A stretch of 46,984 nucleotides of DNA from Candidatus Polarisedimenticolaceae bacterium (GTDB taxonomy: Bacteria; Acidobacteriota; Polarisedimenticolia; Polarisedimenticolales; DASRJG01): assembly GCA_036275915.1 (NCBI GenBank), contig DASUCV010000013.1, positions 1-46,984 of the forward strand, in the 5' to 3' direction. The notes beneath the pieces are model-generated. The model had not been told where the DNA came from and did not search any database. It saw only the letters and a list, made by a program, of their open reading frames with translations. The position numbers were made by a program, and so were the translations under genes. Of the stretch, positions 33,349-39,286 are shown piece after piece; the first letter of the stretch is position 1, and each line of letters opens with the position of its first letter.

Positions 33349-34368
33349 CGATGCGGATACGTACGAGAACGGTCTCGATTCGAAGATCTCGGCGTCCACC
33401 GGAACTCCCCCGCACGTCAGCGGCCGGCAGCGCCACGACTCGAGATACCGAATGAGCTCGCCGTCGGCCTCGAAGTTGAGAGAATCGACGACGACGATGT
33501 CGTGGACGCGTCCATCGCGGGCCAGCACGGCCCTAACCGACGCCGTCCCGGAGGACCTGGTCCCGGGAAACTGAGGGGTGTCCAGGGGCATTTCGGGGCC
33601 GATGTCGCACGAGAGCTCGGCCGCGAGTTCCTCGTCGGTGCAGATCGGACGGTTCGTGGCTCCATCGGGTCGGGACCACCGCGCAGCGTCGCTATCCAGA
33701 TCTTCGAGCTCCATGACTCGGATCTCGAGGACCGTCTTCGACGCGTCTCGGCGACGGATCAGGGCGGGGAAGCTCCGCTCGTGCCACGGCCGATAGTTCT
33801 CGTACTCGATCGTCGTTCGGAAGCGCTGCATGGCCGATGCCGACGGCCCCGTCTCGTGGCGGATCGGTGCTCCGATCTGGGCGTCGATGATGATCTCAGA
33901 CCAAGGGAAGCGTCCGTGCTGGCGCAAGCGAATCTTCGTTCCCGCTCGATGAGATTCCTTCACGCTCTCGATCGTGCCGCCGGCCGGAAGCTTCGCGCTG
34001 GCGGCGACATCGATCGCGTTGACGACGTCGAAGATCCTCAGACTCTGATACGGGGCGTCCGTCAAGATCCAGGCGCGCTCCCCATCCTGACCGGCAATCT
34101 GATGTCGCCCGGGATAGTCGATCTCTTCGCGCCAGGAGCTGGGTGCGCGCCACCAGATCTCGTAGCGCCCCTCTTTCCCGTCCTGCTTGGCCTCGGCGAT
34201 CCAGAGCGACGCTCGCAGATGGAACGGCGGAGCGCCCTCGGACTTGATGTTCGTGACCTCGCGCGCGTGGGCGAGGGCGGTCGCCGCGTCGATCGTGCCC
34301 GGCTTGGATGCGGCGAGCGCACCCGTCACCGCGAGCACGAGAGTCAGGACCTTCGGTACTTCTCTCAT
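33340..34368 (-). CDS. Exported protein with LolA-like region and TonB-type C-terminal domain
   Basis: 342 residues. N-terminal signal peptide (MREVPKVLTLVLAVTGALAA). A region at about 25-230 resembles outer-membrane lipoprotein-sorting or DUF2092-type beta folds: RYEIWWRAPSSWREEI, ERAWILTDAPYQSLRIFD. The C-terminal 80 residues (GTASVRAVLARDGRVHDIVVV...YLESWRCRPLTCGGVPV) look like an energy-transducer TonB C-terminal domain. It lacks the usual Pro-rich linker and membrane anchor, so it is not a classical TonB. It is divergent from the kinase gene at 34470 and could share regulation with it. Function unknown. Confidence 0.65.
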   Translation of the reverse strand: MREVPKVLTLVLAVTGALAASKPGTIDAATALAHAREVTNIKSEGAPPFHLRASLWIAEAKQDGKEGRYEIWWRAPSSWREEIDYPGRHQIAGQDGERAWILTDAPYQSLRIFDVVNAIDVAASAKLPAGGTIESVKESHRAGTKIRLRQHGRFPWSEIIIDAQIGAPIRHETGPSASAMQRFRTTIEYENYRPWHERSFPALIRRRDASKTVLEIRVMELEDLDSDAARWSRPDGATNRPICTDEELAAELSCDIGPEMPLDTPQFPGTRSSGTASVRAVLARDGRVHDIVVVDSLNFEADGELIRYLESWRCRPLTCGGVPVDAEIFESRPFSYVSASSP

Positions 34369-34457
34369 GGCTGCCCCATCAACCGGTTACCGCACATTCT
34401 GCCCGTATCTCGTGTCGACCGGAGCATCTAAAATTCGGTCGCCGTCCTCCCAGCCCT

Positions 34458-34472
34458 TACAATCCGCCGATG
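34458..34472 (+). promoter_or_regulatory. Candidate -10 box adjoining the kinase start (leaderless)
   Basis: TACAAT (34458-34463) lies six bases before the ATG at 34470 with no ribosome site between. A second candidate, TAAAAT (34429-34434), is further upstream. No clear -35 was found for either. Confidence 0.35.
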
Positions 34473-37103
34473 CCGCTGAACACCGGAGCACGACTGGGGC
34501 CGTTCGAGATCACCGGAGCCCTCGGCGCGGGCGGGATGGGCGAGGTCTACCGCGCGCGCGATACGCGCCTGGGGCGTGAAGTCGCGGTGAAGGTCCTGCC
34601 GCCGGACGTCGCAGCGTCCTCGGGATCGCGCGAGCGGTTCGAGCGCGAAGCGCAGGTCGTCTCGTCGCTCCAGCACCGGAACATCTGCACCCTTCACGAC
34701 GTCGGACGGGAAGGGGAGACCGACTTCCTCGTCATGGAGCTGCTCGACGGCGAGACGCTCGCGGCGCGTCTCGATCGTGGGCCGATGAAGCTCGACGAGG
34801 CGCTCGCGGTGGGGACGGAGATCGCGTCGGCGCTCGACGCGGCGCACCGCGCCGGCGTCGTCCACCGTGACCTCAAGCCCGGGAACGTCATGCTCACGCG
34901 CGGCGGCGCGAAGGTACTCGACTTCGGGATCGCGAAGCTCACCGAGCCCGAGGGCACGATGCCGGGGCGCCTGCCGACGATGACGCCGACACGCACGACG
35001 CCGCTCACGTCGGCGGGAGCGCTCGTCGGCACGTTGAACTACATGGCGCCGGAGCAGCTCGAGGGGCGCGGGGTCGACGCGCGCTCCGACATCTTCGCGT
35101 TCGGCGCCGTGCTCTACGAGATGCTCACGGGCCGGCGCGCCTTCGACGGCGCGAGCCAGGCGAGCGTCATCGCGGCGATCCTCGAGCGCGATCCGGCGCC
35201 GTTGTCGTCGCTCGCGCCGATCGTTCCACCGGCGCTCGACCGGCTGGTTCGCGCCTGTCTTGCGAAGAACCCCGACGCCCGCCGGCAGAGTGCGCACGAC
35301 GTCGCCGCGGAGCTCTCCGGGATTCGCGAGTCGCCGCTGCCGAGGACCGGTGAGATCACAGCACCGGCGCGGCGCGGGTGGCGGATCCCTTGGCCGGTGT
35401 CGGTGATCGCGATCATCGCCGTCGCGACCGTGGCGGCGCTGCTCCTGAGACGATCGCCGGAGGCTCCTGCGCGCGTCGTCGAGATCGGCGTCGCGACGCG
35501 GTCGGGGACGACGTCCAACTTCCGGACCTTGGCGCTCTCTCCGGACGGCACGACGCTCGCGTTCGTCGATGCGCCGGAGGGCGCCGGGGCTTGGCAGATC
35601 CGCGTGCGACGCATCGACGAAGCGCGATCGAGGCTCCTCGAAGGGACCGAATCCGGGCAGTGCCCGTTCTTCAGCCCCGACGGGAAGGAGATCGCGTTCT
35701 TCGCGCAGGGCAAGCTGAAGGCAGTCCCGGTCGCGGGCGGCCGCGTCCGCGACCTGTGCGACGCGTCGTACGGGGTCGGCGGGACGTGGGGAAAGTACGG
35801 CATTGTCTACTCGCAGTCGTTCAATGAAGGCATCCGTCACGTCGAGACCATGGGCGGCCGCCCGGAGATGGTGACGACGCTCGACGGATCGCGACACGAG
35901 TCCGGTCACGTCTGGCCCGTGCTGCTCCCGGACGGCCGGCACTTCCTCTTCGTGTCGCGCACCACCGCCGACGAACCCTCGCGCATCGAGATCGGCTCGC
36001 TCGACAAGGAGCCAAGAAAAGTCGTCGTGGCGGCCGACGCGCTGGTCGGGTACGAGGCGCCGTGGCTCCTCTACGTGCGCGGCGGTGCGATCTACCGGCA
36101 GCCGTTCGATCCCGGAAACGGCACGGTGTCCGGGGAGCCTGCCGTCGTCATCGACGACTCGCACTACAGCGAAGTCTGGGGGTCGGCGGGCGCCACGGTC
36201 GCCGGCGACACGCTCGCGTGGGTTCCTCATCATCCGGAGAAGATCTCGGCCGACTGGTACGCGCCGAACGGTGCTCTGGTCGGTCATGCGTTCGACGGGG
36301 AGGATCTCACCGCGGCGCGGCTCTCGCCCGACGGGACGCGGGTCGCGCTCTCCAAGTTCGACCGATCACGCGGCGCAAAAGACATCTGGGTCCTCGAGCT
36401 GGCGCGGGGACTCATGACGCGGCTCACCAAGACCAACGCGGACGACGGGCTGGGCGGCTGGTTTCCCGACGGAACCCAGATCGCGTTCCAGTCCGACCAG
36501 CGCGGCGCGATCGGCATCTACCGCATTGCCGCCGACGGCTCCGGCGCTCCGGTCGTCGTTGCCTCGGATCCGGATCACGACGAGCTCCTCGGCAGCGTCT
36601 CTCCCGACGGGCGTACGGTCTACTTCGAACGGGAAGGCGGCCCGACCGGCCCCGACCTCTGGAGGGTGCCGGTGGGAGAGCCGGCGAAGAGCGCGCCATG
36701 GATTGCGACACCGGACAGCGAGGATGGGCCGCAGGTCTCACCCGACGGAAGGTGGGTCGCGTTCGTGTCTACCAAGTCGGGCTCGCGCGAGGTCTACGTC
36801 CGCGGTGTCGAAGGCGGACCGGTCGTGCAGGTCTCCCTCGACGGTGGCAGCGGCGCTCTTTGGGAGCGGGACGGGAAGGCGCTTCGCTGCCTGGGCACCG
36901 ACTTTCGGATCCGGCGAGTGCCGATCAGCTTCTCGGGGGATCGCCCGATCCCCGGCGCGCCGGACCGAAGCGCCGACATGGTGGTCGATCGCGCTGTCGA
37001 TGCATCGATCGGGCCCGACGGTCGCATCCTCCTGCTCCGCAACGTCTCGCCGCCGGAGGATGCGATCGTGATGCGTCTGGGATGGAAGTCGCGGCTTCGT
37101 TGA
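34470..37103 (+). CDS. Receptor-type Ser/Thr protein kinase with TolB/WD40-like beta-propeller
   Basis: 877 residues from ATG 34470; the longer open frame upstream has no coding support. Kinase domain about 10-280: GAGGMGEVY, VAVKVLP, HRDLKPGN, DFG in VLDFGIAKL, YMAPEQ. One transmembrane helix (about 311-330) then leads to a C-terminal set of PD40/TolB-type blades with LSPDGTTLAF, FSPDGKEIAF, LLPDGRHFLF, LSPDGTRVAL and VSPDGRTVYF. All catalytic residues are present, unlike the DLG variant at 8765. The propeller probably faces the periplasm and senses a ligand, although the substrate is unknown. The stop codon is part of a terminator stem. Confidence 0.92.
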   Translation: MPLNTGARLGPFEITGALGAGGMGEVYRARDTRLGREVAVKVLPPDVAASSGSRERFEREAQVVSSLQHRNICTLHDVGREGETDFLVMELLDGETLAARLDRGPMKLDEALAVGTEIASALDAAHRAGVVHRDLKPGNVMLTRGGAKVLDFGIAKLTEPEGTMPGRLPTMTPTRTTPLTSAGALVGTLNYMAPEQLEGRGVDARSDIFAFGAVLYEMLTGRRAFDGASQASVIAAILERDPAPLSSLAPIVPPALDRLVRACLAKNPDARRQSAHDVAAELSGIRESPLPRTGEITAPARRGWRIPWPVSVIAIIAVATVAALLLRRSPEAPARVVEIGVATRSGTTSNFRTLALSPDGTTLAFVDAPEGAGAWQIRVRRIDEARSRLLEGTESGQCPFFSPDGKEIAFFAQGKLKAVPVAGGRVRDLCDASYGVGGTWGKYGIVYSQSFNEGIRHVETMGGRPEMVTTLDGSRHESGHVWPVLLPDGRHFLFVSRTTADEPSRIEIGSLDKEPRKVVVAADALVGYEAPWLLYVRGGAIYRQPFDPGNGTVSGEPAVVIDDSHYSEVWGSAGATVAGDTLAWVPHHPEKISADWYAPNGALVGHAFDGEDLTAARLSPDGTRVALSKFDRSRGAKDIWVLELARGLMTRLTKTNADDGLGGWFPDGTQIAFQSDQRGAIGIYRIAADGSGAPVVVASDPDHDELLGSVSPDGRTVYFEREGGPTGPDLWRVPVGEPAKSAPWIATPDSEDGPQVSPDGRWVAFVSTKSGSREVYVRGVEGGPVVQVSLDGGSGALWERDGKALRCLGTDFRIRRVPISFSGDRPIPGAPDRSADMVVDRAVDASIGPDGRILLLRNVSPPEDAIVMRLGWKSRLR

Positions 37104-37130: not shown

Positions 37131-37143
37131 TGGCCGAAGGCTA

Positions 37144-37365
37144 GATCTGACCGCTGGGAACGCAGCCGGTCGCGTGGGCGCAGCTCGCGACGCAGCCGTT
37201 CGAGTACGTCACACCGTTCGAGCAGGTGACCGGCGCGTAGATGTCGGGACAGATGCAGCCGCCACCGCCGAACCGCGCGTGGGCCGGGGCGGACAGCGCG
37301 AAGACGCCCAGGACGAAGGTGGTGGAGAGGATCGAGCCGACCGCGAACTTGACGAAACGACGCAT
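37144..37365 (-). CDS. Small secreted Kazal-like cysteine-rich protein
   Basis: 73 residues. Signal peptide about 1-30 ending APAHA. The mature part has six cysteines in a Kazal-like pattern: CICPDIYAPV, TCSNGVTYSNGC and ASCAHATGC. Kazal domains usually inhibit serine proteases; PVxCxxGxTYxNxCxAxC is the recognisable consensus here. A near-perfect AAGGAGG sits five bases before ATG 37365, implying strong translation. It may protect the cell from its own or foreign proteases (inference; the M36 enzyme at 1-4017 is a metallopeptidase, not a usual Kazal target). Confidence 0.7.
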
Positions 37366-37483
37366 GGAAACCTCCTTGGGGGAAAAAAACGGCGGCGATT
37401 CTAACCCGATTCGACGTAGGTTGAGGCTGGCCGGAACCCGTGAGCCGCCTTCGGCGTAGGATGATGCGGAACAAGGGGGGGTC

Positions 37484-37732
37484 ATGCGTACGCTCCGCTC
37501 GTTGAAATTCCTCTTCACCGCACCGTTCATCCTCGTCCTCTTGGTCGTCATCAACTGGATAACTTCGCCCGGCCACTGGTGGGTCCAGTGGGCGGCGCTC
37601 GGTCTCGGTATCGCGTGGGTCATCGCGCTCTTCCGGGTGATGCGGGCGCTGGTCCTCGTCGGCGGGCTCGCTGCGCTCGCCGCGTGGCTCGCGAACCGCG
37701 GCAAGACCAGCGGCACCGGACCGCTCGCCTAG
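37484..37732 (+). CDS. Small two-helix membrane protein
   Basis: 82 residues. A basic N-terminus (MRTLRSLKF) is followed by two or three hydrophobic stretches, with ITSPGHWWVQWAALGLGIAW recalling '2TM' domains. GGGGGG lies three bases before the ATG, and TAGGAT (37457-37462) could be a -10 box. The stop overlaps the AGGAGG ribosome site of the selenoprotein candidate, so the two genes are coupled. Function unknown. Confidence 0.65.
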   Translation: MRTLRSLKFLFTAPFILVLLVVINWITSPGHWWVQWAALGLGIAWVIALFRVMRALVLVGGLAALAAWLANRGKTSGTGPLA

Positions 37733-37740
37733 GAGGCGCC

Positions 37741-38952
37741 ATGAAGAAGATGCTCCTCGCCGCAACGATTGTCCTCGCCGCCTGCGGCACGCACCCGACG
37801 GCCCCCTTGAAGGGCGGGATCGCGCTTCCCTTCATCGAGAACGACTATGCCGGCGCGCTCACCAAGGCGCGCGAGGCGAAGCTGCCGATCTTCGTCGAGG
37901 TCTGGGCCCCGTGGTGACATAGCTGCCGCTACATGCGCGCCACGGTCCTCACCGACCAGGCGCTCGTGAAGCAGGCCGGGCGGTTCGTCTGGCTCTCGAT
38001 CGATACCGAAGACGCGAAGAACGCACCCTACCTCGAGAAGTTCCCGTGGGAAGCGGTTCCGACCTTCCAGGTCATCAACCCCGCCGCCGAGACCGTCGCC
38101 TTTCAGTGGGTCGGCGCGTGCGACGCGAACGAGCTGGTCAAGCGCTTCGACGAAGGGGAGAAGGCCTTCCACGAGGCGAGCGCGAAGCCGGCCGCGCCGA
38201 CAGGGGCCGACAGCGAGCTGAACGCGCTCGCGATGGCGGACAAGAACCAGGAGTGCGCGGAGAAGGCGCTGGCGTTGGCGCCGACCCTTCCGCCCGGCGC
38301 GATGAAGGCGAACGTCGTCTCGACCGGGCTCGACTGCGCTCTCGGCGCGAAGCCCGAGGAATCGCCGTGGCGCCCGGCGGCGCTCACGACCCTCGAGGCG
38401 GCGACGAAGGAGGCGCTCACGTACCCGGGCCTCCTCGACGACGACCGCTCGGCGCTCTACGGCGAGCTGGTCGACGCCCGCGACCGCCAGGACGACAAGG
38501 ACGGCGGCAAGGCCGCGGCCGGTGCCTGGCTCGACTGGCTCGATCAGCAAGCGAAGAGCGCGCCGAGCTCCGAAGCCCGCGCCGCCCTCGACGGCTACCG
38601 GGTGAGCGCGGCGATCCGCGCGGCGGCGCCCGAGCGCGTGCTCGCCTCGATTCAGGCGTCGGAGCGCGAGCTGCCGAACGATTACAACCCGCCCGCTCGC
38701 CTCGCTTTGGTCTACCGCGAGATGGGGAAGTACGACGATGCGCTCGCGGCCTCCGACCGGGCGCTGGCCAAGGTCTACGGCCCACGCAAGATGACGATCC
38801 TGGACGCCCGCGCGACGATCTACGAGAAGAAGGGGGACGCCGCGAAGGCGAAGGCGACGCTCCAGGAGGCGCTCGACTACGCGAAGACCCTGCCCGCGCC
38901 GCAGCAGCCGAAGGGGATGATCAAGCGGATCGAGAAGAAGCTGAACGGGTGA
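37741..38952 (+). CDS. Probable selenocysteine-containing thioredoxin-fold lipoprotein with TPR-like repeats
   Basis: 403 residues if TGA 37915-37917 is read as Sec (codon 59). Start ATG 37741 has AGGAGG four bases before it. Lipobox TIVLAACG gives a lipoprotein signal (Cys 15). The thioredoxin-like core has VEVWAPW-U-HSCRYM, where the UGA replaces the first Cys of CxxC, then VWLSIDTEDA and a cis-Pro segment WEAVPTFQVI. The C-terminal half is helical and TPR-like (YNPPARLALVYREMGKYDDALA). The frame remains open for 344 codons past the UGA and stays homologous in character to the thioredoxin fold, so an ordinary stop is unlikely. A gene caller would start it at ATG 37933, removing the signal and redox site. 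Alternative: a Cys-to-stop mutation or sequencing error. It probably acts as a periplasmic or outer-membrane thiol oxidoreductase. Confidence 0.8.
37937..37963 (+). promoter_or_regulatory. SECIS-like hairpin downstream of the in-frame UGA
   Basis: GCGCC (37937-37941) pairs with GGCGC (37959-37963), and GGTC (37944-37947) with GACC (37954-37957). There is a small AC/A internal loop and a CTCACC apical loop about 30 nt after the UGA. The position fits a bacterial SECIS, but the loop lacks the usual G in its first two positions, so the assignment is tentative. Confidence 0.4.
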
Positions 38953-38953
38953 A

Positions 38954-39033
38954 TCGACAGAGTCAACAGTCAACAGTCGACAGTTGACAGCCCCCCAGCT
39001 GTCAACTGTCAACCGTCAACTGTGAACTGTCGA
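38954..39033. repeat. Palindrome built of heptads: five direct, 8-nt spacer, five inverted
   Basis: Direct units TCGACAG, (AG), TCAACAG, TCAACAG, TCGACAG, TTGACAG (38954-38990). The spacer CCCCCCAG comes next, followed by inverted units CTGTCAA, CTGTCAA, CCGTCAA, CTGTGAA, CTGTCGA (38999-39033). It fills the gap between the convergent selenoprotein and small Cys-rich genes and should fold into a long hairpin, so it likely terminates transcription from both sides. Confidence 0.75.
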
Positions 39034-39040
39034 CTTCCCG

Positions 39041-39286
39041 TCAATTCGGGCAGATCTGGTCGGTGCAGTAGATCGTCTGGCAGACCTTGTAAGACGAGGT
39101 CACACCCCAGTTGATCACCGAGCCACAGCAGCCGGTGCCGCGCGCGCCGACCGCTTTCTTGTGCGTGGCGTCGCTGTAGTAGGTGCAGACCGAGGTGCCG
39201 GCCTGCGAGCCGGGAAGCGTCGTCACGAACGCGACGATCCCGATGCCGAGCGCAACGGCAGCAATGAGCGAGCGAGTCCCTTTCAT
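39041..39286 (-). CDS. Small exported cysteine-rich protein (DUF6289-like)
   Basis: 81 residues with a signal peptide (about 1-29, ending GSQAG). The mature domain has Tyr-Tyr-Ser-Asp and six cysteines: VCTYYSDATHK, GTGCCGSVINWG, VCQTIYCTDQICPN. The pattern matches my memory of DUF6289, which is uncharacterised. AGGAGG lies nine bases before ATG 39286. It could be a secreted structural or bioactive peptide; no processing or modification enzymes are adjacent. Confidence 0.65.
   Translation of the reverse strand: MKGTRSLIAAVALGIGIVAFVTTLPGSQAGTSVCTYYSDATHKKAVGARGTGCCGSVINWGVTSSYKVCQTIYCTDQICPN

Follow-up and report, generated by a model that had tools for sequence, protein, structure and literature searches.

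A May 2026 inventory counts 119 prokaryotic selenoprotein families and subfamilies (PMC13188914 Table 1), including UxxC thioredoxins, thiol:disulfide interchange proteins and Trx7/PDZ proteins. An earlier sequence-only reading of the DNA analyzed here stated that UxxC thioredoxin-fold selenoproteins are established in bacteria. The bacterial SECIS rule calls for a stable stem-loop right after the UGA codon, with its apical loop 16-37 nt away, and the standard bSECIS model wants a G in the first two apical-loop positions (PMC13188914).

The locus described here lies in a stretch of 46,984 nucleotides from Candidatus Polarisedimenticolaceae bacterium, analyzed as a whole and called the window below. 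At 37741-38952 on the forward strand it carries a gene that, judged from its sequence and its homologues, almost certainly encodes a selenoprotein, and very probably one with the domain anatomy set out below: an exported thioredoxin-TPR protein of 403 residues when UGA is read as selenocysteine (Sec). The inventory does not contain a thioredoxin-TPR architecture, and the terms TPR, tetratricopeptide, lipoprotein, Acidobacteri- and Myxococc- are absent from its text (PMC13188914). A search of the open literature on the motif, the domain pair, and selenoproteins of Thermoanaerobaculia and Myxococcus found no report of a thioredoxin-TPR family. Some members may be covered unnoticed by a general label such as 'thiol:disulfide interchange protein'. 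The earlier impression that the lipoprotein-TPR arrangement was unfamiliar holds, since the protein passes the cut-off of no NCBIfam model (June 2026) and the arrangement is not in the 2026 inventory.

A reading frame with one internal UGA

The frame opens at ATG 37741, with a Shine-Dalgarno-like AGGAGG (37731-37736, forward strand) ending 4 nt before it. It contains only two TGA codons, one internal (37915-37917) and one terminal (38950-38952), and is otherwise open. Translation with TGA as U places U59 within W-A-P-W-U-H-S-C (FVEVWAPW-U-HSCRYMRA), so the internal TGA falls at codon 59, where Cys is expected in W-A-P-W-C-x-x-C, exactly as first proposed. The AGGAGG and the lipobox named for the start of the frame are both present, the latter as LAAC ending at residue 15. 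The 344 codons originally given are correct for the stretch after the TGA and wrong for the whole frame, which has 403. Three residues after the Sec, the resolving Cys62 of U-H-S-C (37924-37926, forward strand) is invariant in a nine-sequence alignment.

Standard annotation would split this gene. As anticipated, the mechanical list of open reading frames offers a headless 339-residue product from an internal ATG (37933-38952), and in genes of this kind automatic annotation would lose the active site and the signal peptide. The existence of this frame, together with the partial termination that is normal at Sec codons, leaves some room for the UGA being a true stop that yields a 58-residue N-terminal peptide, a headless TPR protein re-initiated at ATG 37933, or both. 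That interpretation is highly improbable. A headless product would have neither the signal peptide nor the first part of the thioredoxin domain. The motif W-x-x-W-U-H-x-C across the UGA and the thioredoxin fold flanking it are conserved together as a single domain. In addition, homologues without the TGA all have Cys at this place in one continuous frame.

Selenocysteine or cysteine at residue 59

The case for a selenoprotein rests largely on the homologues. Among 100 related genomes searched for the first homologue set, the nearest homologue (64% identity, same taxonomic family) has one TGA, six further homologues have one each, and one has none. Eight aligned sequences, including that of the window, share the motif W[AV][PS]WUH[ST]C, and the ninth reads WAPWCHSC; invariant residues of this alignment include W55, W58, U/C59, H60, C62 and P107. 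Scanning 84,980 species genomes recovered 80 loci from Acidobacteriota, Myxococcota and Eisenbacteria, in which the residue-59 codon is TGA in 31, TGC in 36 and TGT in 13 (49 Cys) and nothing else, an absence partly favored by the search because one of its two patterns contained the Cys/Sec column. This distribution confirms that the TGA at codon 59 is not a chance occurrence. An independent whole-genome profile search in the window's own phylum, for which the Cys/Sec column was not required, found matches in 18 of 396 genomes; the residue is encoded by TGA in 15 of these and is Cys in 3. The alignment thus sets the in-frame UGA against the conserved Cys of homologues, the pattern by which a bacterial selenoprotein is recognized, and the objection that homologues might lack Cys at residue 59 falls away, as only Cys or U occurs there.

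Dozens of soil and sediment bacteria carry the Sec or the Cys form at this residue, and the cultured Myxococcus, Corallococcus, Pyxidicoccus and Archangium all have the Cys form. A maximum-likelihood tree of 83 rows requires at least 8 changes between Sec and Cys, all 8 of them forced by well-supported branches, against 26.5 expected from shuffled labels. The state is therefore inherited yet repeatedly switching. Repeated switching is the usual behavior of Sec/Cys pairs.

These comparisons also bear on the idea that the UGA arose through faulty sequencing or assembly, or through a recent nonsense mutation, in which case the locus would encode a normal Cys protein or be a gene in decay. Cys homologues do exist and the assembly is a draft, which would suit such an account. 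Against it, the same codon is TGA in 34 other genomes from several phyla, which makes sequencing error untenable; the frame is intact after the TGA, and the nearest relative has TGA as well. An artifact or a decaying gene is accordingly a very remote prospect.

Selenocysteine machinery

The genome (G000; 4.53 Mb, 98% complete, draft assembly of 24 contigs) encodes a tRNA-Sec with anticodon UCA (72.4 bits), SelA (518 bits), SelB (314 bits over its frame) and SelD (361 bits). With selA, selB, selC and selD all found, the possible objection of a missing selB or selC is removed, and this machinery, taken with homologues that have only Cys or U at residue 59, supports the initial reading of an unannotated selenoprotein. 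The SelD of the same genome (L018, G000:C11:265241-266182) has an in-frame TGA of its own near the N-terminus, in SYAACAGUASKMGP. SelD with an in-frame UGA is a known type of selenoprotein, so the genome would have at least two.

Across the family, SelA is present in 33 of the 35 distinct genomes with the TGA form. The remaining two (G023 and the genome of locus L118) each carry a 70-bit tRNA-Sec, and their missing SelA is therefore most likely an assembly gap. None of the 35 has the TGA form while lacking every part of the Sec pathway. SelA occurs in 14 of 19 sampled Cys-form genomes and is absent from the other 5, which indicates that the Cys form can live without it.

Reading of the UGA as Trp or another amino acid, through a reassigned code or a suppressor tRNA, has a practically negligible probability. 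No point in its favor was found, and three stand against it: the gene itself ends in TGA, so this codon keeps its stop meaning here and is not reassigned genome-wide; the aligned homologues show Cys codons only, never Trp; and a Sec-type tRNA with a UCA anticodon is present alongside SelA, SelB and SelD. For the codon as Sec, we infer insertion in the cell from the gene and this machinery.

A SECIS-like hairpin after the UGA

Folding places a SECIS-like hairpin directly 3' of the UGA (37923-37979, forward strand), with its apical loop at nt 34-39 from the U of UGA; the placement was compared with the bSECIS model in PMC13188914. The region after codon 59 aligns without gaps across homologues. 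Each distinct segment (nt 4-60) was folded against 300 synonymous resamplings with the gene's own codon usage, giving a mean z of -2.57 for 34 distinct Sec forms and -0.23 for 46 Cys forms (Mann-Whitney p 1.4e-12, which overstates independence because the sequences are related). Inheritance alone explains this difference poorly, because Sec forms and Cys forms are intermingled across the tree. A strong hairpin limited to TGA forms also argues against a sequencing error or nonsense mutation.

A single hairpin forms in all 34 Sec forms, with a loop that opens 28-31 nt past the codon (nt 32-35 when counting begins at the U of UGA), and in 30 of 46 Cys forms, with more scattered loop positions. 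The Sec-form hairpins fall within the 16-37 nt spacing of PMC13188914. The minimum-energy apical loop of the window, CUCACC, departs from the standard bSECIS model in having no G in the first two positions unless the top pairs are opened; the conserved GU is found 2-3 nt earlier, within the top stem.

Consensus folding suggests that the exact pairing drifts between clades, since RNAalifold, given all 34 Sec segments in a single register, returned no consensus structure and no pairs; on 8 sequences it did find a consensus structure. Pairs of a hand-set helix form at 80% in Sec forms versus 62% in Cys forms, and slid registers reach 34-48%. Covariation in the hairpin appears real but modest, because shuffling the arms lowers pairing only to 77%, while none of 2000 shuffles is as high as observed. 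An Rfam scan of the window gave no match, which is unsurprising because bacterial SECIS elements vary from gene to gene.

Domains, structure and export

The N-terminus, MKKMLLAATIVLAAC, reads as a signal peptide with the lipobox LAAC (37741-37788, forward strand), and Cys15 is predicted to be lipidated. The window copy is thus a predicted lipoprotein; other family members have either a lipobox or an ordinary signal-like N-terminus.

A thioredoxin-fold domain of Thioredoxin_7, thioredoxin and DsbD-gamma-like character follows at residues 33-135 (37837-38145, forward strand), as indicated by Pfam, NCBIfam, a PDB profile search, AlphaFold2 and Foldseek. Pfam matches Thioredoxin_7 at residues 33-114 (9.8e-10), across the TGA, and TPR_12 at residues 320-382 (1.5e-8), the latter within an alpha-helical TPR-like tail that AlphaFold2 and Foldseek extend over residues 156-403 (38206-38949, forward strand). 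The AlphaFold2 model (mean pLDDT 89.7, pTM 0.85) shows a thioredoxin fold and then an all-helical TPR-like tail, and residue 59 opens the active-site helix. Its thioredoxin domain resembles 2kuc (TM 0.74 by target) and DsbD-gamma (TM 0.61-0.70), and its tail resembles TPR superhelices. In alignment, the invariant Pro107 (38059-38061, forward strand) stands at the place of the thioredoxin cis-Pro, a role presumed from what is established for the fold. As modeled, the protein therefore combines the hallmarks of the thioredoxin superfamily: the fold, a (C/U)xxC opening the active-site helix, and a Pro before a later strand at the cis-Pro place. The coherent thioredoxin core and TPR-like tail first read from the letters thus reappear in both the Pfam matches and the model.

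Gene surroundings

An 82-residue ORF (37484-37732, forward strand), with weak 2TM/DUF6320 matches below cut-off, ends 8 nt before the selenoprotein start and is possibly co-transcribed with it. On the reverse strand, an ORF at 37141-37716 carries in its C-terminal part a Kazal-type protease-inhibitor domain that narrowly passes the Pfam cut-off, and 39041-39286 encodes a small exported Cys-rich protein of family DUF6289. Further upstream, a Ser/Thr protein kinase is fused to a PD40 beta-propeller (34308-37103, forward strand). Just after the gene, 38955-39040 holds several copies of GTCAACTGTCAAC / ACAGTTGACAG in both orientations, forming a palindromic repeat block. A long antisense ORF (37729-39012, reverse strand) was taken as a high-G+C shadow.

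Clustering of gene neighborhoods found no partner conserved family-wide; shared ones occur only in Myxococcaceae and small acidobacterial groups. In seven acidobacterial loci (L051, L054, L064, L069, L081, L084 and L090) a recurring gene lies just upstream, the commonest neighbor in that clade, and in L026 it reads like a prolyl-oligopeptidase-type hydrolase. Elsewhere, at L057:2970-6245 (genome of L024/G091), a Cys form occupies the last part of an open frame of 1092 codons, in frame with 650 upstream codons that resemble an HExxH metallopeptidase (HEMGH). The arrangement could reflect a fused peptidase-thioredoxin-TPR protein, or just two genes that share a frame.

Proposed activity

In the proposed mechanism, SelB with Sec-tRNA(Sec), recruited by the in-frame hairpin just after the UGA, would read 37915-37917 as selenocysteine. 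The 403-residue product would be exported and, in the source species, is predicted to be lipid-anchored. Beside the cis-Pro loop (Pro107), Sec59 would then serve as the nucleophile and Cys62 as the resolving residue of a thiol-disulfide exchange located in the cell envelope. A thiol-disulfide oxidoreductase fits both the resolving Cys and the invariant His next to the nucleophile. Most likely, the reductase would be recharged through a CcdA/DsbD-type membrane electron conduit, and the TPR tail would bind a client or partner protein. The redox direction, the electron source and the role of the tail are what we infer from these features. An envelope reductase is proposed because export through a signal peptide or lipobox, a DsbD-gamma-like domain, and CcdA/DsbD_TM proteins encoded in the genome coincide; on balance, the evidence leans toward a thiol-disulfide reductase of the envelope whose TPR tail binds clients.

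The selenoprotein might instead be an envelope peroxidase, an oxidase/isomerase or a metal-handling protein, an option of appreciable but minority weight. Thioredoxin-fold selenoproteins span several such activities (PMC13188914), and no genetic context fixes the substrate. However, the closest domain matches are reductase-type modules, namely DsbD-gamma and thioredoxin, and a resolving Cys within U-x-x-C is a typical feature of thiol-disulfide exchange.

The protein would probably represent an undescribed selenoprotein family found in Acidobacteriota, Myxococcota and Eisenbacteria, namely an envelope redox enzyme that depends on Sec and selects its clients through a TPR docking arm of its own, with at least eight Sec/Cys switches, including in Myxococcaceae. 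If so, naturally occurring Sec/Cys pairs of a single protein would allow the benefit of selenium to be tested. The closely related Sec and Cys forms, each otherwise continuous, offer a clean natural experiment, and Myxococcus and Corallococcus provide culturable Cys-form hosts. The gene also adds a well-supported family to the selenoproteins known from bacteria, in groups where few of them have been described.

Comparison with known systems

The Sec-containing thioredoxin (PF00085, UxxC), an experimentally verified family (PMC13188914), shares the thioredoxin fold, the Sec placed first in UxxC and the cis-Pro position. Unlike this small protein, the window protein is exported, belongs to a family whose members are often lipoproteins, bears a 250-residue TPR-like tail and scores 28 bits to PF00085. 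Thiol:disulfide interchange selenoproteins (PF13098, Thioredoxin_2) likewise have a thioredoxin-like domain with UxxC, but here the PF13098 match is secondary (28.5 bits, with Thioredoxin_7 better) and a TPR tail is added, of which the inventory makes no mention. The Trx7/PDZ domain-containing (seleno)protein NF041199 is similar in being a selenoprotein with a Thioredoxin_7-type domain, yet it combines CxxU with PDZ, whereas the window protein combines UxxC with TPR, shows no PDZ and reaches 16.6 bits against a cut-off of 300.

The best NCBIfam match is the rhodanese/DsbD fusion-like selenoprotein TsoB (NF045694), through the DsbD-gamma-like C-terminus of TsoB. This 572-position model has rhodanese- and DsbD-like parts, and the window protein covers only model positions 464-557, at 28.8 bits against a cut-off of 805. 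DsbD itself has a membrane domain between two periplasmic domains, while the window protein matches the gamma-like domain only and has no DsbD_TM match. In all nine aligned members, matches to these TsoB and DsbD models are confined to the gamma-like domain and have modest E-values. The nearest solved thioredoxin domain, 2kuc (a putative disulphide-isomerase of Bacteroides thetaiotaomicron; profile E 2.3e-18), is a single domain of about 130 residues without the TPR tail. Set against these systems, the protein is a new family within the thioredoxin-fold UxxC selenoproteins, not a new mechanism.
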